A stretch of DNA of 64,000 nucleotides from Campylobacter hepaticus (GCF_001687475.2 NZ_CP031611.1:1302001-1366000); one strand, 5' to 3'; shown: positions 16,788-26,472, counted from the stretch's first letter. The notes: generated by a model not told the origin, from the sequence alone. Made by a program: numbers and translations.

Positions 16788-17891
16788 ATGAATACTTTTG
16801 GTACAAGATTAAAATTTACAAGCTTTGGTGAATCTCATGGAGTTGGAATTGGGTGTGTTATTGATGGAATGCCTGCAGGAGTTAAATTTGATGAAGATTT
16901 TTTACAAAGTGAACTGGATAAACGTAAAGGTGGAACACGATTTAGCACCCCAAGAAAGGAAAGCGATAAGGCTCAAGTTTTAAGTGGAGTATTTCAAGGA
17001 TATACTACAGGTCATCCTATAGCTATCATGGTTTTTAATGAAAATGCACATTCTAAAGATTATGATAATATAAAAGATTTATTCCGTCCTGCTCATGCTG
17101 ATTTTACTTATTTTTATAAATATGGTTTAAGAGATCATAGGGGTGGAGGAAGATCAAGCGCTAGAGAAAGTATAGCTAGAGTGACTGGTGGTGCAGTTTG
17201 TGCTATGCTTTTAAACGAATTTGGTATTTGCGCTCAAAGTGGAGTTTTTGCAGTAGGCTCTTTGGTTTCAAATTTAAAAGAAGATGAATTTGATTTTGAT
17301 TTTGCTAAAAAAAGTGAAATTTTTTGCCTTGATCCTAAATTAGAACAAGATTTTAAAAATGAAATTTTAAATGCCAGAAATTCTAAAGATAGTGTAGGAG
17401 CTGCAGTTTTTACTAGGGTTAGTGGTATGCCTATAGGACTTGGAGAAGTTCTTTATGATAAATTAGATTCTAAATTAGCTCATGCTTTAATGGGGATAAA
17501 TGCCGTAAAAGCTGTAGAAATAGGTGAAGGGATAAATGCGAGTAAATTACGTGGTTTTGAAAATAATGATGCTTTAAAAGATGGAAAATTTTTAAGCAAT
17601 CATAGTGGAGGTATTTTAGGAGGTATTTCAAATGGAGATGATTTGCTTTTAAAAACTTATTTTAAACCTACTCCTTCTATTTTTATTAAGCAAAAAAGTA
17701 TGGATAAATTAGGAAATAATTTAGAATTTGAACTTAAAGGCAGGCATGATCCTTGTGTGGGGGTTAGAGGAAGTGTGGTTGTTAATGCTATGGTGCGTTT
17801 AGTTTTAGCTGATTGTTTGCTTTTAAATGCCAGTGCAAATTTAAAGAATTTAAAAAATGTTTATTATTATCAAAACTATTTCAAAAAATAG
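16788..17891 (+). CDS. aroC: Chorismate synthase
   Basis: Last step of the shikimate pathway, turning EPSP into chorismate with reduced FMN. It has 367 residues. The family signatures FGESHGVGIGCVIDG (about 12-26), the Arg-rich RDHRGGGRSSARE (about 116-128) and RHDPCVGVRG (about 322-331) are present. It starts one base after the rnc stop. Its last codons form the left arm of an 18-bp terminator hairpin. It is the last conserved gene before the two-partner secretion locus. Confidence 0.96.
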   Translation: MNTFGTRLKFTSFGESHGVGIGCVIDGMPAGVKFDEDFLQSELDKRKGGTRFSTPRKESDKAQVLSGVFQGYTTGHPIAIMVFNENAHSKDYDNIKDLFRPAHADFTYFYKYGLRDHRGGGRSSARESIARVTGGAVCAMLLNEFGICAQSGVFAVGSLVSNLKEDEFDFDFAKKSEIFCLDPKLEQDFKNEILNARNSKDSVGAAVFTRVSGMPIGLGEVLYDKLDSKLAHALMGINAVKAVEIGEGINASKLRGFENNDALKDGKFLSNHSGGILGGISNGDDLLLKTYFKPTPSIFIKQKSMDKLGNNLEFELKGRHDPCVGVRGSVVVNAMVRLVLADCLLLNASANLKNLKNVYYYQNYFKK

Positions 17892-17904
17892 TTTTGATAA
17901 TAAT
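17863..17904 (+). terminator. 18-bp hairpin at the end of aroC
   Basis: ATTATTATCAAAACTATT (17863-17880) is perfectly repeated in reverse complement at 17887-17904, with a 6-base loop. The aroC stop codon lies inside the right arm. ATTTTAAAA follows. It probably ends the rnhA-rnc-aroC transcript and insulates the secretion locus. Confidence 0.65.
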
Positions 17905-18139
17905 ATTTTAAAAAAGATTTAATATCATACTATTTACTTACTAAAAACTTTTCTATGACTTTTTAATTTTGTTTTGAAAATTAAATAACAAATTAATATT
18001 TTATTTATTTTATAGTGTGTAAAAAAGAAATAAAATTAATTTTTTTTTATTTTTTGTTTGTAATTTAGTAAAAATTATTATATAAAATTACTGATTTAAT
18101 AGTAAAATATATATGTAAATATAAAAGAGGAGGCTTTAT
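17905..18139 (+). promoter_or_regulatory. Leader and probable promoter of the two-partner secretion locus
   Basis: About 235 very AT-rich bases without an ORF. Candidate -10 boxes are TATAAAAT (18081-18088) and TAAAAT (18103-18108). A very strong ribosome-binding site GAGGAGG (18127-18133) stands 6 bases before the tpsA ATG, stronger than most in this window. No sigma54 or sigma28 element, Fur box or repeat tract that could phase-vary was seen. Confidence 0.45.
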
Positions 18140-21100
18140 ATGAATTTCAATAAAGGAAAATTTGTTCGTTTATCGTTGAATTTAACGCTGCTTAGCGCTT
18201 TATTCCCGTGCGTCTTGTTATCTGCAGACTTAAGACAAAGAAATGGTAATGTTATTGTTTCAAAAAATACCAGCATTACACATTCTAGCAATGGTACAGA
18301 CGTAATTAATGTTAATAATCCAAATAAAAATGGGGTTTCACACAATCAATTTGATGATTTTAATGTTCAAGATGGTGTGATTTTTAATAATAGTTTAATA
18401 GGTGGTAATTCACAAATTGGTGGTTGGGTTGATAAAAACCCTAATTTACAACAAAATGCTAATACTATAATCAATGAAATTATGAGTAAGCAAGCATCTG
18501 GGATCCATGGTAATATTGAGGTATTTGGAAAGAGTGCTAATTTAATTTTTGCTAATGAAAACGGTTTTAGTATTAATGGTGCGTCTTTTTTAAATACAAC
18601 AGGAGTTACTTTTAGTACAGGTAAATTTAATGGAGATAATATTACAGATGTAGGAAGCAATGGCAAGATATCTATTGGAGATAAAGGTGTTGCAGTTGAT
18701 GGGGATTATTTTAATGTGATTAGCCGTAGCATAGATATTGCCGGTAGTATAGCTCATTATCGACAGGGAAAAAATTTATCTAATATTAATTTTATAGCCG
18801 GGCTTAATAAGGTAGATTTAAGTAATCCTAATTTACCTAAAATTCTTGCTTCAAGACAAACAAATGATAAAATTGATTATGGTATAGATGGTAGAAATTT
18901 AGGTTCTATGTATGCTAATACTGTTACTCTTGTAAGTACTGAAGAAGGTGTTGGTGTAAGACATACTGGAGTTATAAGAGGGCTTAAAGATATTATTGTT
19001 AAAGTTAATGGTGATGCTCAGTTTCAAGCTCTTGGTGTAAATAGTGGAGGAAGTGTTGGTATAGATGCTAGAAATATTACAACATCTTTAATTGATGCAG
19101 ATAATATGAATTTAAATGCCGATGGTAAAATTACTAATGAGGGCTTATATAGAGGTAAAAATATTAAAATCGATGCTAAAGATTTTGAAAATGCAAAAAA
19201 AGATACTTTAAGTAAAGAAACTAGAGATATTTTCAAAACAGATCAAGATGGATCAAAAATACTTGCTGAAAATTTAGATTTGCATACTACAGGCAAAATG
19301 TCTAACTTTGGTTCTATAAACACTTTAAAAGATCTTAGAATTACTACAGGAGGATTTGAAAATAAAGGTAAAATTTCATCTAATGAAGATGTATACTTAA
19401 CTTTAAATAATGATGATTTTGTAAACCGCGGTCAGGTATTTAGTCAACATGATATTAAGGTGCAAGCTAACAAAGATTTAACTTTAAATGATGGTAATTT
19501 ATTTGCTGATCATTTACTTAGTGTTAAAAGCTCCGGTGATTTAAATATCAATGGGAAACTTGAAAATTCTTCTTCAGTAGATCTTGAAGCTCAAAATATT
19601 TATAATAGAAATCTTGTTGCTAGTGGTAAAAATTTAAGTCTTCATGCTAGCAATAATATTATCAACAATGGTTATTTCTTTGCAGTTAATGATTTAATAG
19701 CAAAAGCTTTTCATATTGGAAATAATTCAACTTTTAATAGTTTAAATAATATGTATTTAAATGCTGAGGCTATTGATAATTATGGTTTGATTGTTGCTAG
19801 CAAAGACATTAATATTGAAACAATAGTTTTAACTAATAATGCAAGTTTAACAAGATCTCTTGATGCATCAAGCCAAAGAATTGAAGGTAATGGTTGGGCA
19901 AATTATGGTGATACAGCTTTTAAACGTTGGAATATGGATATTGGAATTGATATTTTAAAATATACTAATAATTTAGATAGTAAACAAGCTTCAATTCAAG
20001 CAGGTGGAAATATTAATATCAATGTTAATTCAAAAAATCAATCAGCGTTTATTTTCAACAGAGGAAAAATAATAGCTCAAGGTGATATTACAACTTTTGG
20101 AAATATAGATAATAAAACTTTAAGTCAGGATATGAGTGTAGAAGAAATTTTAGCTCGTATGAAACTTGATAAGCTTTTTGCTAAAGAATTTCTTGGATCT
20201 TGGAATACAAATTGGAAAGATTATTTAGCTAGAGGCGGTAATTTACTTAATGCTTTAAGATATTTTGCTACAGCTAATTTAAAAGATCATCAAAGAGAAT
20301 CAGCTTGGAATGCTTTTAAAGATGCTGCTGCTCATAATGAAACTTTAAATTTATATTTTTCTTTATTGTTTGGCAGTGATTATGCTTCTAAGAGATTTAT
20401 TCCAAAAGTTAGCGAATGGAATCATGATGCTAAGATAGTCTTTAAATCAAAATCTGAAGCTGTAATATCATCTAATGGAAAATTAAATGTAAATGCTAAT
20501 GAATATGATCAAGGTTTGGTAAGTTCTTTTAATAAAAATTCTTCTTTAATCAAATCACAATTAAAAGATGAGCTTAATAAACAAGATTTACTCTCTACAA
20601 TACCAGATATGGCTAATACAGGATTATTCCATTATACTAATAAAAAAGATGGAGAAATTACTTATCAGTATACTTCAAATCATGCTATAGTAGATCCTGA
20701 TTATTATGGATTTAAAGATGTTGCAAAAGAATTTAAAAATAAAGATTCAGATACTAATAATGTTATAGGAGATTCTTTTTTCCAACATCAACTTCTTAAA
20801 TCAATGTATGAAAAATATGGTCTTGGTGGGGTTTTAAGTGATGAGGATATTGAGCGTCTTCTTAAAAACGGTGCAGATTATGCTAATAAACATAATTTAA
20901 AATTAGGTCAAGGCTTGGGTAAAGATCAAGAAGTTGACAATGATATGATTATATTTGAAAAAGTTAATAGAGATGGAAAAGAAGTTTTAATTCCTAGATT
21001 TTATTTCTCTAAAAAAACTTTAGAAGATAATAAGCTTAGCTCAAATCTTTCTGGAAAAAATGGTGTTAATGTCAATACAAATTCATTTAATTCTTCACTA

Positions 21101-23839
21101 GGTAGTGTTGATTCAAAAGGTAAAGTTAATATCAATGCTAAAGATAAAGTTGATTTACACAGCACAAGTGTTAAAGGAGATGATGTTAATATCAATGCAG
21201 GAGAAGTAAATATAGATACTTTCTCAGGCATAGATGAAAAAGGTTCTCGTAATTCTATTGATAAGAGTGAAGTGAGTGCAAAAAATCATATTAATATTGA
21301 TTCTGATAAGGATATTAATATTAAAAACAGTGATCTTGTTGGAGAAGCTGATGATTCTAAAATTGTCTTACATTCTAAAGATGGAAATATTAATATAACC
21401 AATGATTATTCTAATACTTCATCTTTTAAAAATACTGATACAAATAATGAAAAATCTAATACTTCTAAAACAACAGATGGAGTTTTAAGTTCAAATCTTA
21501 AAGCAGGGGATGTAGATATTATTTCTAATAAAGATGTTAATATACAAGGTAGCAATATAGATGCAAATAGTGAAATTAACATTAAAGGAAATAATGTTAA
21601 TATAACAGATGCTCATGAAAAATCTAGTACTACTTTTGATGGAATATATTTTGGAACAGCATCTATTACTCATCAAAGCGGTAGTTCACAAAGTTCTAAA
21701 TCAATTGGCAGTAAATTAAGCTCAAAAGGAGATATTAAAATTGATGCTAAAAAAGATATTAATATTGAAGGTTCTGATCTTAAAGCTCAAAAATCAGCAG
21801 ATTTAGATGCAGAAAATATTAATATTAAAAATGGAGAAAATAAAGTTTCTTATTCTTTGGATTCTTCAAGTCTTAGTGCATTAGGATATAGATATGATTC
21901 TGTAAATAGTGATAGTACTTTAGCTTCTTCATCTAATGTTGAAGCAGGTAATTTAAATTTACATGCAAAAGATAAAGCAACTATTACAGGAAGCCATTTA
22001 GGTGGTGGAGATATTAATATACATGCTAATGGGGTTGATTTTAAAGCAGCACAAAATAAAACTCACACACAAAGCAATTCTTCTGCTATAGGATTTTTTG
22101 CTAATACTGACATAGGTTTAGGTGGATATGGAGTTGGTGCAAAATACAGCTTTACAGATGGAATATCAAGTGCTGGTAAAACTTATGATGATAATTTTAG
22201 AGGATCTAGTACCTTAGGTTCTTCTGAAGTTGGAATAGAATTTGCTAGAACTCAAAAAACAGAAAATGAAGTTTCTCATCTTTCTAGCTCAGTTACAGGA
22301 TCAAATATCAATATTGATGCAGATGGTACTTTAGATATAGGTGGAGGTAACTTTGAAGCAGAGAAAGATATTAACTTAAAAGGTGGAGAGGTTATAAGCA
22401 CTAAATATGAAGATAGCAAAACTGAGGATAGTTCAAGATTTGGTATTTATGTTAAAGAAAGACTTGAAGTGGGTGGCTTAGCAGTGTCTGCTCTTAATCA
22501 AGGTATTGCTACTCTTAGCAGCGATAGAGGTGTAAATCATGGGATACCAGTAGTTCAAGGTCTTGCTACTACTCTTGGTGTGCTTCATGATCATATCGCA
22601 GAAGCAAGTGCTGGTGAAAGCGTAGGTTTAGGATTTGAAAAAGAACATGAAAGAAGCTCTAAAGAAAATACTACCCATCTTAAAGCCGGGGGTAAATTAA
22701 ATATAGAAAGCACTAAAGGAGATGTGACTTTAAATGGGGTTGATGCTAAAGCAGGTGAAATCAATATTAATGCAAAAGAAAATTTCACAGCTAATGCTTC
22801 AAAATCAAGCCATTCTTCTTCAAGTACTTCTTTTGAAATGGAAGTAGGCAAAAAAACAGTAGCAGGATATAATGTTTTTGATGGAGGAACTGTTGGAGGT
22901 GAAATTGAGTTTTCTGCTGGAGGATCACGTTCTAAAGAAGATGAAACTAAATATCATAATTCTCATTTTGATGGAAAAAATGTTAGTATTAAAACAGGAA
23001 AAGATGCTACTTTAAATGGAGCTAATGTTAAAGCTTCTAATGATGTTAATTTAGATATAGGTGGAGATTTAAATGTTAATTCTTTAAAAGATCAATCTCA
23101 TTCAGATAAATATAGTGTTTCATTAGGCGGAACTGTAGAATTAGACTTATCATCAAATCATATTGTTTCGGGAGATTTTTCAGGCACAGTAGGAGTAGGA
23201 TATGGTAAAAAAGATAGTCAAACTGTAGGAGAGCAAAGTGGCATTAGTGCAAAAAATGAGATTAAGGGTAATGTTAATGGAGATTTGTCTTTAGATGGCG
23301 GGGTTATTAATTCTGATACTCAAAAAGGCAATTTAAATGTTGGAGGAAAGGTTAAAGGATCTGATATTAAAGTTTATGAAAAAGGTGATGGGGCTCATGT
23401 TTCATTAACTGGAACATCAGACCATGTTTATAAAGCAAAAATTAATATAGATGATCATATTGATAAAACAGGTAGTGTTAATTCTGCAATCAATATTGAT
23501 GTTAATGGTAAAAAAGATCATGGTTTAAGTCAAGATACTAAAGATACTCAACATATGCAAGATAATTCTTGGGATGGAGGAAATGTTAATATTGGTATCT
23601 TTACTCATAAAATTAAAGATGGAGTTAATAAATTTATTGATTCAGGTTCTGATGGTCATGGAGCAAATAATCATGGAGGAGCAAATAATCATGGAGGAGC
23701 AAATGCTGGAGCCCAAAATCCAAATGTTAATGGACCTCAAGCAAATAATCATGGAGGAGCAAATGCAAATGGAGCTCAAAATGGAGGTGCTGATAATGGA
23801 CCTTATATCAATGAGACTACTCAAACTACAAGGTTATAA
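18140..23839 (+). CDS. Two-partner secretion exoprotein TpsA, filamentous-hemagglutinin/CdiA-like
   Basis: A 1899-residue secreted filamentous protein. The signal peptide is 1-29. The TPS secretion domain (about 30-270) has the family motifs VSHNQFDDFNV, NPNL (100-103) and NENG (139-142, in place of the usual NPNG). Beta-helix FHA repeats run to about 640. A helix-rich middle part (about 660-960) includes a shortened copy of the module found between the FHA-1 and FHA-2 repeats of CdiA/HecA proteins (around 848-958). FHA-2-like repeats follow to about 1700, rich in INI/VNI strands and Asp/Asn/Gly/Ser. A low-complexity tail at 1836-1899 holds ANNHGG repeats. The mature protein has no cysteine. 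There is no VENN motif, pretoxin domain or recognisable toxin domain, and no immunity-like gene follows. Best read as an adhesin or effector-less CdiA relative. Confidence 0.9.
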   Translation: MNFNKGKFVRLSLNLTLLSALFPCVLLSADLRQRNGNVIVSKNTSITHSSNGTDVINVNNPNKNGVSHNQFDDFNVQDGVIFNNSLIGGNSQIGGWVDKNPNLQQNANTIINEIMSKQASGIHGNIEVFGKSANLIFANENGFSINGASFLNTTGVTFSTGKFNGDNITDVGSNGKISIGDKGVAVDGDYFNVISRSIDIAGSIAHYRQGKNLSNINFIAGLNKVDLSNPNLPKILASRQTNDKIDYGIDGRNLGSMYANTVTLVSTEEGVGVRHTGVIRGLKDIIVKVNGDAQFQALGVNSGGSVGIDARNITTSLIDADNMNLNADGKITNEGLYRGKNIKIDAKDFENAKKDTLSKETRDIFKTDQDGSKILAENLDLHTTGKMSNFGSINTLKDLRITTGGFENKGKISSNEDVYLTLNNDDFVNRGQVFSQHDIKVQANKDLTLNDGNLFADHLLSVKSSGDLNINGKLENSSSVDLEAQNIYNRNLVASGKNLSLHASNNIINNGYFFAVNDLIAKAFHIGNNSTFNSLNNMYLNAEAIDNYGLIVASKDINIETIVLTNNASLTRSLDASSQRIEGNGWANYGDTAFKRWNMDIGIDILKYTNNLDSKQASIQAGGNININVNSKNQSAFIFNRGKIIAQGDITTFGNIDNKTLSQDMSVEEILARMKLDKLFAKEFLGSWNTNWKDYLARGGNLLNALRYFATANLKDHQRESAWNAFKDAAAHNETLNLYFSLLFGSDYASKRFIPKVSEWNHDAKIVFKSKSEAVISSNGKLNVNANEYDQGLVSSFNKNSSLIKSQLKDELNKQDLLSTIPDMANTGLFHYTNKKDGEITYQYTSNHAIVDPDYYGFKDVAKEFKNKDSDTNNVIGDSFFQHQLLKSMYEKYGLGGVLSDEDIERLLKNGADYANKHNLKLGQGLGKDQEVDNDMIIFEKVNRDGKEVLIPRFYFSKKTLEDNKLSSNLSGKNGVNVNTNSFNSSLGSVDSKGKVNINAKDKVDLHSTSVKGDDVNINAGEVNIDTFSGIDEKGSRNSIDKSEVSAKNHINIDSDKDINIKNSDLVGEADDSKIVLHSKDGNINITNDYSNTSSFKNTDTNNEKSNTSKTTDGVLSSNLKAGDVDIISNKDVNIQGSNIDANSEINIKGNNVNITDAHEKSSTTFDGIYFGTASITHQSGSSQSSKSIGSKLSSKGDIKIDAKKDINIEGSDLKAQKSADLDAENINIKNGENKVSYSLDSSSLSALGYRYDSVNSDSTLASSSNVEAGNLNLHAKDKATITGSHLGGGDINIHANGVDFKAAQNKTHTQSNSSAIGFFANTDIGLGGYGVGAKYSFTDGISSAGKTYDDNFRGSSTLGSSEVGIEFARTQKTENEVSHLSSSVTGSNINIDADGTLDIGGGNFEAEKDINLKGGEVISTKYEDSKTEDSSRFGIYVKERLEVGGLAVSALNQGIATLSSDRGVNHGIPVVQGLATTLGVLHDHIAEASAGESVGLGFEKEHERSSKENTTHLKAGGKLNIESTKGDVTLNGVDAKAGEININAKENFTANASKSSHSSSSTSFEMEVGKKTVAGYNVFDGGTVGGEIEFSAGGSRSKEDETKYHNSHFDGKNVSIKTGKDATLNGANVKASNDVNLDIGGDLNVNSLKDQSHSDKYSVSLGGTVELDLSSNHIVSGDFSGTVGVGYGKKDSQTVGEQSGISAKNEIKGNVNGDLSLDGGVINSDTQKGNLNVGGKVKGSDIKVYEKGDGAHVSLTGTSDHVYKAKINIDDHIDKTGSVNSAINIDVNGKKDHGLSQDTKDTQHMQDNSWDGGNVNIGIFTHKIKDGVNKFIDSGSDGHGANNHGGANNHGGANAGAQNPNVNGPQANNHGGANANGAQNGGADNGPYINETTQTTRL
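23663..23778 (+). repeat. 18-bp in-frame repeats coding for Ala-Asn-Asn-His-Gly-Gly
   Basis: GCAAATAATCATGGAGGA occurs in tandem at 23663-23680 and 23681-23698 and again at 23741-23758, with degenerate copies around them. Being a multiple of three, copy-number change would alter the length of the exoprotein tail without a frameshift. Near-identity of the units at DNA level suggests recent duplication. Confidence 0.85.
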
Positions 23840-25492
23840 GTGAGAATTATTAAAATTGTATTTTTGTCTATGAGTTATATCTGCTTTTTACAAGCAGATG
23901 ACTCAGCAAAAATGCTTAATTTGTTAGAAAAAAGACAACAACAAATCTATATAGAAAAAGAATTTGATGAATTAGCAAGAAAGCAACAAGAAGAAGATGA
24001 AATTATCTTAGAAAATCCCAATTTTGAAGATAAGTTTTATACTTTTGAACATATTCAATTTAAAAAAGAAGATGAACTTACAAAAAAAGCTGAAGTAATT
24101 TTGCAAAAATATCTTAATAAGGCTTTAAATATTAATGATATTTATAATATGATTAAAGAGCTTACTAATTTTATTGTTTCAAAGGGTTATTCTACTTCAG
24201 GTATAAGTATTGATAAAATAGATGAGAGCAATCATACTCTTTTACTTGATTTAAAATATGGCTTTGTTGGAGAAATATATCTTAATGGGGATAATAATGC
24301 TACAAAATTAGAGCTTGGTGTGCCTTTAAAAAAGGGAGATAAATTTAATATTTATGATTTAGATACAGGAATAGAAAATTTAAGCAATGCTGCTGAAAAT
24401 GTTAAAATTTCTATAAAAGCTAGCCAAGATTATGATTATTCAGATATATTTATTGAAAGTGAACCAAATCCTATTGATATACTTATTGATTTTGATAATA
24501 GTGGAAGTAAAGATCAAGGAGAATATAAGACTAGCACTCAAGTTGTTTTGAAAAATCCATTTAATGTTAATGATTCTATGCAATTTGGTTTTATCCAAAG
24601 TTTATTAAAAGATATGGGAAAAGAACATAAAAATGTTTATTTGTTAAATTATCTTTTACCTTTGCAAACTTATGAATTTATTTATTCTTTACAATACAGT
24701 GATAATAAAAATTTGATTGAAGGTTATGGTAATTCTTACATAGTAAATAAAGATACAAGTTTAAGACATAAAATTACATTAAGGAAAATTTTACACCGTA
24801 CTAATACGGATAAGTTTTCAATTTATGCTAATTTATCTATTAAAGATGATGTTAATGAAATTGATGATTTTGTTTTAAAAAGTTCAAGTGGTAGGTATTC
24901 TAGTATTGCTAGTGGTATTGAGTATTCAACTCTTGCATTTGATGGGTTTTTATTTTTAAATTTAGAATATGAAAAAGGGGTTCCATTTTTAGGATCTAAA
25001 AGAGATTCTATTAATTCTTTATATAAGGTAGAATTTAATAAGGTAAATTTTAATTCAAGTTATAAAAAGAATTTTTATTTTAATGATGATTTAGCCTTTT
25101 TATATCAGGGTAATATAGGGGGAAGTTATTCTAATGAACCCTTGCTATATGCAAATAAATTTTTAATAGGTGATGAATATACTGTTAGAGGATTTAAGGA
25201 AAGTTCAGCAGCACTTGATTATGGAGTATATGGAAATCATACTATATATTTACAATTTTTACACTTCCCAAAATATTTAAGAGCTTTACAACCTTTTATT
25301 GGTTTAGATTTGGGTTATGGTAGAGATTATCTTTTGCCTAATAAAGATTTTTTAGCAGGCATTGCTTTTGGATTTAGATACAATTTAGATTATTTATCTT
25401 TAAATTTTACTGCATCTAAGGCATTGCATAAATCTTCTAATATGCCAAGTGAAAGAATGCCTATTTACTTTAGAGCTTCGATGTTTTTTTAA
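23840..25492 (+). CDS. TpsB outer-membrane transporter (FhaC/ShlB/CdiB family)
   Basis: A 550-residue Omp85-superfamily pore that exports the TpsA protein across the outer membrane. It has signal peptide 1-20 and an N-terminal charged helix region (about 22-60). Two POTRA domains follow (about 66-136 and 137-205; the second has the family-like IENLSNAAENV). A 16-strand-type barrel follows, with the loop-6 signature VRGF at 449-452, and it ends in a terminal Phe. The GTG start follows the tpsA stop with no gap; AAGG at 23830-23833 serves it. Its stop overlaps the convergent PP-loop gene by 4 bases. The order tpsA-tpsB is the reverse of cdiB-cdiA. Confidence 0.9.
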   Translation: MRIIKIVFLSMSYICFLQADDSAKMLNLLEKRQQQIYIEKEFDELARKQQEEDEIILENPNFEDKFYTFEHIQFKKEDELTKKAEVILQKYLNKALNINDIYNMIKELTNFIVSKGYSTSGISIDKIDESNHTLLLDLKYGFVGEIYLNGDNNATKLELGVPLKKGDKFNIYDLDTGIENLSNAAENVKISIKASQDYDYSDIFIESEPNPIDILIDFDNSGSKDQGEYKTSTQVVLKNPFNVNDSMQFGFIQSLLKDMGKEHKNVYLLNYLLPLQTYEFIYSLQYSDNKNLIEGYGNSYIVNKDTSLRHKITLRKILHRTNTDKFSIYANLSIKDDVNEIDDFVLKSSSGRYSSIASGIEYSTLAFDGFLFLNLEYEKGVPFLGSKRDSINSLYKVEFNKVNFNSSYKKNFYFNDDLAFLYQGNIGGSYSNEPLLYANKFLIGDEYTVRGFKESSAALDYGVYGNHTIYLQFLHFPKYLRALQPFIGLDLGYGRDYLLPNKDFLAGIAFGFRYNLDYLSLNFTASKALHKSSNMPSERMPIYFRASMFF

Positions 25493-26472
25493 GAAATAAA
25501 AAATTGACTTATGCTATTTTTATCTTCAAAGGCTATGCTTTGATAAGTTTTATTTTTAAAACTAAGTTCATAGCTTTTTCCTATTTCATGTTTAGTATAG
25601 CTTAAAGCGATTTTCATAGCAAGTTCTAAATCTTTTTCTGAAATTTTTTCATCTACTAAAGAATAAGCACCTATTAGATTTTTAAGTTCTATAACTTCAT
25701 ATTTTGGAGTTTTTAAATTTTTTAAAATAGCGTTTTCTAGTTCATTGCGCCCTATAATCATTTTAGCTCCATGAGGTAGTCTTAAGTGTCTACCGTATTT
25801 TAAAAGTTGTGCATCATTAACTTGCATGTCTTTATCAAATTCTATAAAGTCACGGATTTTTTTAGTGAAACTATCAAGAGTTAGTAAACAACCTCCTCCA
25901 GGGCTTTCAAAATCTTCTAAGCCAAATAATTTTGCAAGTTCAAGCTGTCTTTTGCGGCTTCTTCCACTGATATTTTCAAGTTTTTCTCTATCTACCCAAC
26001 CTTCTCTTTCTGGCTTGCTTGGGGGCAATTTTTTTGCACACATGGGACGTAAGATTAAATCTTCTTGATCTAAAGCAAGTTTTTTAACTTTAACCATAGC
26101 ATCGTTTCTTTGACTCATGGGTCTTTGTCCTAAAACTTCTCCTGTGATAATAAAGCTTGCTTTTTCTTCTTTTAACATAGAAAGTGCCGTTTTAAACATA
26201 AAAGCATGGCAATCTATACAAGGGTTGAAATGTTTTCCATAACCATATTGAGGGTTAAAAAGTACTTCTTGAAGATAAGAATTTCTTACATCTATCATTT
26301 CAAAATCAGCACCTACCATAGCCGCACGTTTTTTCATGATTTCACTTTTGTCACTTGTGCTTCCAAAACCTATATTAATATTTAAAGCTTTAACTTCTAT
26401 GTTTTGTAAGGTGATAAGCTTCATGGCAAGCATGCTATCAAGCCCACCACTAAAAAGAGCTAATGCTTTCAT
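25489..26472 (-). CDS. PP-loop ATPase, MnmA/ThiI-like (probable tRNA thiolation)
   Basis: A 327-residue cytoplasmic protein with the PP-loop SGGLDS at 8-13, which activates a substrate by adenylation. Cysteines Cys85/Cys88 (NPCIDCHAF) and Cys195 (GGGCLLT) sit where MnmA/ThiI-type enzymes carry catalytic or metal-binding thiols. A tRNA sulfuration or related role is inferred; it could also be another member of the adenine-nucleotide alpha-hydrolase group. It corresponds to C. jejuni Cj1633. Start ATG 26472 has GGGAG upstream. It converges on tpsB with a 4-base overlap. Confidence 0.75.
   Translation of the reverse strand: MKALALFSGGLDSMLAMKLITLQNIEVKALNINIGFGSTSDKSEIMKKRAAMVGADFEMIDVRNSYLQEVLFNPQYGYGKHFNPCIDCHAFMFKTALSMLKEEKASFIITGEVLGQRPMSQRNDAMVKVKKLALDQEDLILRPMCAKKLPPSKPEREGWVDREKLENISGRSRKRQLELAKLFGLEDFESPGGGCLLTLDSFTKKIRDFIEFDKDMQVNDAQLLKYGRHLRLPHGAKMIIGRNELENAILKNLKTPKYEVIELKNLIGAYSLVDEKISEKDLELAMKIALSYTKHEIGKSYELSFKNKTYQSIAFEDKNSISQFFIS

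Follow-up and report, generated by a model that had tools for sequence, protein, structure and literature searches.

An FHA-type two-partner secretion locus of Campylobacter hepaticus with no visible toxin, and depletion of the PglB sequon in TpsA proteins of glycosylating Campylobacterales

Several two-partner secretion (TPS) systems provide points of reference for the locus described here. Bordetella FhaB is a much longer protein with a prodomain that is cleaved, and Haemophilus HMW1 is a TPS protein that is exported bearing N-linked mono- or dihexoses of cytoplasmic origin. Within Campylobacter, an intact TPS pair was noted in C. lari in 2005 (PMC539331). For C. hepaticus, a pathogen of the chicken liver, those sections of a report on the protein FHA that are drawn on here (PMC9811313) describe it (PEG 1316, 1899 aa) as the largest protein of strain HV10, as the match of a 220-kDa band with which the sera of infected hens react, and as the source of a fragment (residues 1628–1899) on which an ELISA is based. 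The locus analysed here lies in a window of 64,000 nucleotides (NZ_CP031611.1:1302001-1366000) of the HV10 chromosome, which is 1,520,669 bases in length (CP031611.1; PMC6371046), and its exoprotein TpsA is the protein already published as C. hepaticus FHA (PMC9811313). The finding of the locus itself is therefore ordinary, this being a known kind of adhesin that is already a diagnostic antigen. A ‘Hemagglutinin’ gene, HV10_01341, given as down in vivo (-2.89; PMC6371046), is probably tpsA, judging from the gene number. The partner pore, the question of a toxin, the synteny of the orthologues and the sequons are not treated in those sections of the FHA report, and are considered here.

The tpsA and tpsB genes are both located on the plus strand, between aroC at the left boundary of the occupied site (16788..17891, plus strand) and a converging gene for a Cj1633-type ATP-binding protein at the right boundary (25489..26472, minus strand), both of which were assigned by profile and synteny. 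The tpsA gene (18140..23839) has an ATG start 6 nt downstream of a Shine-Dalgarno sequence, AGGAGG (18128..18133), and encodes an FHA-type exoprotein of 1899 aa. Its computed mass of 203 kDa is near the published 220-kDa band; this gel mass fits the whole chain, and there is therefore no sign that a large C-terminal part is removed. Comparison with the orthologues reveals a hypervariable tail rich in H, G, A and N (about residues 1850–1886; 23687..23797), followed by a conserved C-terminal peptide, GPYINETTQTTRL (23798..23836), within whose codons lies the Shine-Dalgarno sequence of tpsB, AAGG (23830-23833). The tpsB gene (23840..25492) begins with a GTG at the base right after the tpsA stop codon, and encodes an FhaC/ShlB-type transporter of 550 aa. 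Because tpsB abuts tpsA and shares its last bases with the Cj1633-type gene, there is no space for an immunity gene, and none is adjacent. A search for phase-variable tracts found no homopolymer longer than 7 in either gene, with poly-G tracts of 5 at most, and a search for plasmid copies of the locus found none. At the left boundary, a perfect 20-nt inverted repeat (17862-17905) spans the aroC stop codon, gives C. hepaticus AroC the C-terminus YYYQNYFKK, unlike that of its relatives, and occupies the place of a G+C-richer terminator-like hairpin in those relatives.

The two genes are an intact two-partner secretion pair (type Vb) of the FHA type. Behind a predicted signal peptide (about residues 1–29; 18140..18226) TpsA has a TPS domain (PF05860, residues 43–292, 18266..19015; E=1.2e-30) containing NPNL at residues 100–103 and NENG at residues 139–142, the latter invariant among the orthologues, and by profile the N-terminus matches the FHA secretion domain of PDB entry 1rwr (E 9e-56). 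Fil_haemagg_2 (PF13332) is matched at E=1.3e-39 in five stretches, the best of them at residues 1501–1660, in a repeat region with approximate limits of 21200..23119. TpsB matches ShlB at E=2.8e-57, with PF03865, PF08479 and PF17287 all above the Pfam cut-offs and two POTRA domains, and profile matches to structures give it 141 bits with FhaC and 100 bits with CdiB. The original prediction of a signal peptide, a TPS domain with both motifs, FHA-2-like repeats and a dedicated FhaC/CdiB-type pore directly behind, all placed between aroC and a Cj1633-like gene, is thus borne out; the CdiA/HecA-like middle module that it also proposed finds no support, with residues 640–960 matching no Pfam family and no CdiA family. 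This module (about residues 663–960; 20126..21019) is conserved in the orthologues, and profile positions 841–970 are unmatched in two more distant relatives (G050 and G063, see below). AlphaFold models of residues 1595–1899 and 575–1000 have mean pLDDT values of 39 and 42, which do not suffice for a fold search, and in the latter, low-confidence model the middle module is predicted to be partly helical.

Comparison of the aroC-Cj1633 interval across 49 genomes of the genus Campylobacter, one per species, shows a site that is occupied in some and empty in others. The pair is present in eight genomes, C. hepaticus included, with C. bilis VicNov18, C. coli C8C3 and C. jejuni 414 among the other carriers; it is intact in seven and broken in one, and the gene order aroC, tpsA, tpsB, Cj1633-type gene is common to all eight. 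In seven other genomes there is a clean empty site, where aroC adjoins the Cj1633-type gene with about 100 bases between them. The TpsA orthologues of the other species are 57–71% identical to that of C. hepaticus, and orthologue lengths are 1858–1903 aa, all without a toxin. The dN/dS values of 0.11–0.45 for tpsA and 0.09–0.25 for tpsB indicate purifying selection on both genes. We consider it extremely improbable that tpsA is a decaying, non-functional adhesin gene of the kind described for several TPS loci of C. jejuni and C. coli: both genes of C. coli LMG 9860 (L026 8498-15694) are indeed broken by frameshifts and stops, and disrupted TPS copies are reported elsewhere (PLoS Biol 2005, PMC539331), but the C. 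hepaticus reading frame is open, the dN/dS values are well below 1, and the protein is detected and immunogenic in hens (PMC9811313).

More distant relatives of TpsA are present at other sites in two other genera (G050, 1745 aa; G063, 1743 aa; G127, 1872 aa), with tpsB behind tpsA and no toxin. In the three genera, the intact orthologues and near relatives all finish in a short tail, with tpsB following at once, and a terminal peptide with the pattern (Y/H)(I/V)NE.T..TRL is common to all three, while absent from G023 and C. bilis. We considered this peptide as a mere effect of the tpsB Shine-Dalgarno sequence and rejected that reading, as AAGG accounts for the last codons only, and G023 and C. 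bilis have the AGG/AAGG but lack the peptide. In TpsA itself, Pfam and NCBIfam give no PT-VENN, pretoxin or toxin match, even at E<1. Because no orthologue or near relative carries a toxin, the lineage most likely never had one, and because the same end and terminal peptide extend across three genera, its root was most likely already without a toxin.

The alternative, that TpsA is a contact-dependent inhibition protein of the CdiA type whose toxin and immunity gene have been lost, is unlikely. The Fil_haemagg_2 repeats are of a kind seen in CdiA, other Campylobacteraceae TPS loci resemble polymorphic-toxin loci with repeated downstream cassettes, and three deeper relatives that share the FHA-2 part (G296, 5300 aa; G066, 5374 aa; G101, 4426 aa) run on for a further 2,300–3,300 residues at the C-terminus, one of them with an HExxH string. 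Against this, the close relatives in three genera end alike, most with the terminal peptide and all with tpsB abutting, the gene order is A-B without an I gene, TpsB is nearer to FhaC than to CdiB, and there is no toxin remnant; nor does the C. hepaticus genome contain a second TPS protein or a PT-VENN elsewhere, although this search is a weak one, PT-VENN being silent in control genomes too. Given the long-tailed relatives, loss of a toxin deeper in the tree is conceivable. The original claim that neither a toxin nor an immunity gene is visible therefore holds, with a blank domain search and tpsB starting at the next base. As to the suggestion of an adhesin that lost, or never had, a toxin, it is the never-had half that gains support, whereas the CdiA-type architecture proved unspecific, given the FhaC-like TpsB, the gene order and the unmatched middle module.

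The longer proteins have features of their own. The 5300-aa relative (L113 1287-17189, minus strand) shares the middle and FHA-2 parts and has tpsB behind it, and its C-terminus holds an HEMTH string, from which it is perhaps a metallopeptidase-type effector. The giant TpsA of 5374 aa (L114 2946-19070, minus strand) has a C-terminal module that recurs every 2424 bases (808 residues), and another giant TpsA, of 4426 aa, is found at L115 3981-17261 (minus strand). At three further TPS loci (L096 4304-18589, L097 2809-18003 and L117 3474-17370), partial copies of tpsA recur and small or lipoprotein genes follow each of them, an arrangement that resembles orphan toxin/immunity cassettes.

The main pattern concerns the PglB sequon, [DE]xNx[ST] with no Pro between, which is precisely the site of N-glycosylation in more than 35 proteins of C. 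hepaticus (PMC9816155). With expected counts obtained by shuffling, each of the seven intact TpsA orthologues would have 4.0–5.0 sequons, and all seven have none. Distantly related TpsA proteins of four other genomes (G127, G296, G218 and G368) have ordinary numbers, including seven in G127. The hypothesis of PglB-dependent depletion was fixed before the enzyme was sought, using a single profile for STT3/PglB, PF02516, in 75 genomes; it matches in every genome with a purged-looking TpsA, and in none of these four. The depletion of sequons in TpsA is tied to the presence of pglB and the pattern is strong: among 67 TpsA proteins of the Campylobacterales, some with ORFs cut at contig ends, the 49 from genomes with pglB have 10 sequons against 211.6 expected, and the 18 from genomes without it have 82 against 83.5.

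TpsA sequences contain many repeats and have a high content of Asn, Asp and Ser, and numerous TpsA proteins share ancestry, such that the depletion might be a by-product of composition or repeat periodicity, unrelated to PglB. This is very unlikely for several reasons. First, the reversed motif is not depleted (221 observed against 209.6 expected with pglB, and 82 against 85.8 without), nor are the Q and K variants of the sequon. Secondly, composition is removed as a cause by a 2x2 test that crosses an acidic residue at -2 with Ser or Thr at +2 for every Asn, because it runs within each protein; the pooled odds ratios are 0, 0.12 and 0 in three groups with pglB, and 1.18 without. Thirdly, because proteins of one genus are related, we used per-genus tests, and the depletion holds with one protein per genus (2 observed against 31.8 expected with pglB, versus 53 against 44.4 without) and in the comparison by genus (Mann-Whitney p = 0.0009). 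Fourthly, counts are normal or elevated in genera that lack pglB but belong to the same families (g5 in f1, g41 in f6). Two genomes without pglB have zero sequons in TpsA, both of them small samples (G297, 79% complete, 4.9 expected; G399, 2.5 expected, whose congeners have pglB), and the ten sequons left in the presence of pglB are distributed among the genera g3 (five), g9 (three) and g2 (two). We found no paper on sequon avoidance with PglB, TPS or autotransporters in the open-licence literature, and the rule is apparently undescribed so far.

Genus g9 (L129, L130, L131) is distinctive in that N-x-S/T is depleted about threefold whatever the -2 residue, suggesting that its oligosaccharyltransferase is relaxed. 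The loss of the acid-binding Arg from g9 PglB, predicted in advance, was not found, with Arg present in two and Lys in one; this Arg, which contacts the -2 acid, need not be what chiefly determines PglB specificity (PMC4894442). Two other genomes, G080 and G087, have second PF02516 matches (L226 and L228) without the RIS-motif Arg, the residue aligned with the -2-acid-binding Arg of Campylobacter PglB, and these second copies may differ in specificity. There is no more than a weak tendency to stronger N-x-S/T depletion in genomes with two PglB copies.

Other proteins of C. hepaticus, sampled from 304 kb of the genome, provide a control. Signal-peptide proteins have 11 sequons against 9.4 expected and membrane proteins 14 against 10.5, with cytoplasmic proteins at 37 against 47.3 (reversed motif, 38 against 46.7); exported proteins of the ordinary kind thus show no avoidance of the sequon. 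A PglB N-glycoprotein has at least one sequon; TpsA has zero and TpsB, another protein that crosses the periplasm, has two, at N131 and N153. The latter is in the POTRA region (TpsB residues 151–155; 24290-24304), where the sequon takes the forms DNNAT, DNNTT and ENNNT; one is kept near this position in every TpsB checked from genomes with pglB (genera g1 and g2), there is none in the TpsB of the pglB-less G127, and N153 is a likely glycosylation site. FHA goes unmentioned in the main text of the C. hepaticus glycoprotein paper (PMC9816155). Autotransporter passengers have 15 sequons against 39.2 expected in genomes with pglB, and 26 against 30.9 in those without; their depletion is moderate, and the strongest is that of chains passing through a TPS pore. 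The C. hepaticus genome has ten matches to the autotransporter barrel PF03797, the best at only E 3.7e-9, and these are possibly many small or fragmentary genes.

We favour, with a probability of roughly 0.7, the interpretation that this is a toxin-less FHA-type two-partner system in which the sequons have been purged because a PglB glycan hinders the export or folding of TpsA. The signal peptide would direct TpsA through Sec across the inner membrane, to emerge unfolded in the periplasm; its TPS domain would be recognised by the POTRA domains of TpsB, and passage of the chain by way of the TpsB barrel would yield a long beta-helical rod at the cell surface, which would most likely serve as an adhesin. 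En route, the unfolded chain would pass the periplasmic oligosaccharyltransferase PglB, and a bulky N-glycan (the heptasaccharide) would interfere with translocation by the pore or with beta-helix folding, such that selection would strip nearly every acceptor sequon from TpsA in PglB-bearing species. We thus infer that the sequons were removed probably because the sugar tag would stop TpsA from leaving the cell. Beta-helix folding or surface exposure could instead be the selected trait, with a glycan disrupting the rod or presenting an unwanted epitope irrespective of export through the pore. The chain is expected to adopt a beta-helix for much of its length and the protein is immunogenic (PMC9811313), but we regard this as possible rather than probable: the seven orthologues lack sequons also in the non-helical middle module and in the variable tail, structurally diverse autotransporter passengers are depleted too, and the outer-membrane compartment tolerates glycan, because four outer-membrane proteins are reported to be N-glycosylated in C. 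hepaticus (PMC9816155).

We lean towards a general rule that strong selection acts on pore-threading proteins to lose the sequon of the host oligosaccharyltransferase, a periplasmic N-glycan being incompatible with translocation, in TPS proteins and to a lesser degree in autotransporters. In glycosylating bacteria, the PglB sequons of TPS exoproteins are down to some 5% of expectation, whereas PglB-less relatives show no such effect. If the rule is true, such proteins would report naturally on oligosaccharyltransferase specificity, which could then be read from genome sequences alone. It would also join protein glycosylation with type V secretion, provide a direct genomic test of what a TpsB pore tolerates, and advise caution in E. 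coli glyco-engineering, where surface display by TPS or autotransporter systems may fail with a sequon-bearing passenger.

The relationships to described systems can be set out as follows. The pair is like Bordetella FHA/FhaC in its 1rwr-matching TPS domain and in the best TpsB matches being FhaC structures, and differs from FhaB in that the gel mass fits the whole TpsA chain. C. lari RM2100 likewise has an intact FHA-like adhesin gene beside a TpsB gene (CLA0151/CLA0150), a likeness drawn from their description (PMC539331). CdiA/CdiB shares the TPS domain, the Fil_haemagg_2 repeats, which are not specific to CDI, and a dedicated Omp85-type pore, but the C. hepaticus locus has no VENN, toxin or immunity gene and a different gene order. 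Haemophilus HMW1A/HMW1B/HMW1C is similar as a TPS adhesin system to which N-glycosylation matters, and by analogy the export of HMW1 with N-linked sugars would count against a glycan that blocks export, although those sugars are small and cytoplasmic. Whereas HMW1 receives its one or two hexoses in the cytoplasm, TpsA has been purged of the sequon for a heptasaccharide that is added in the periplasm.
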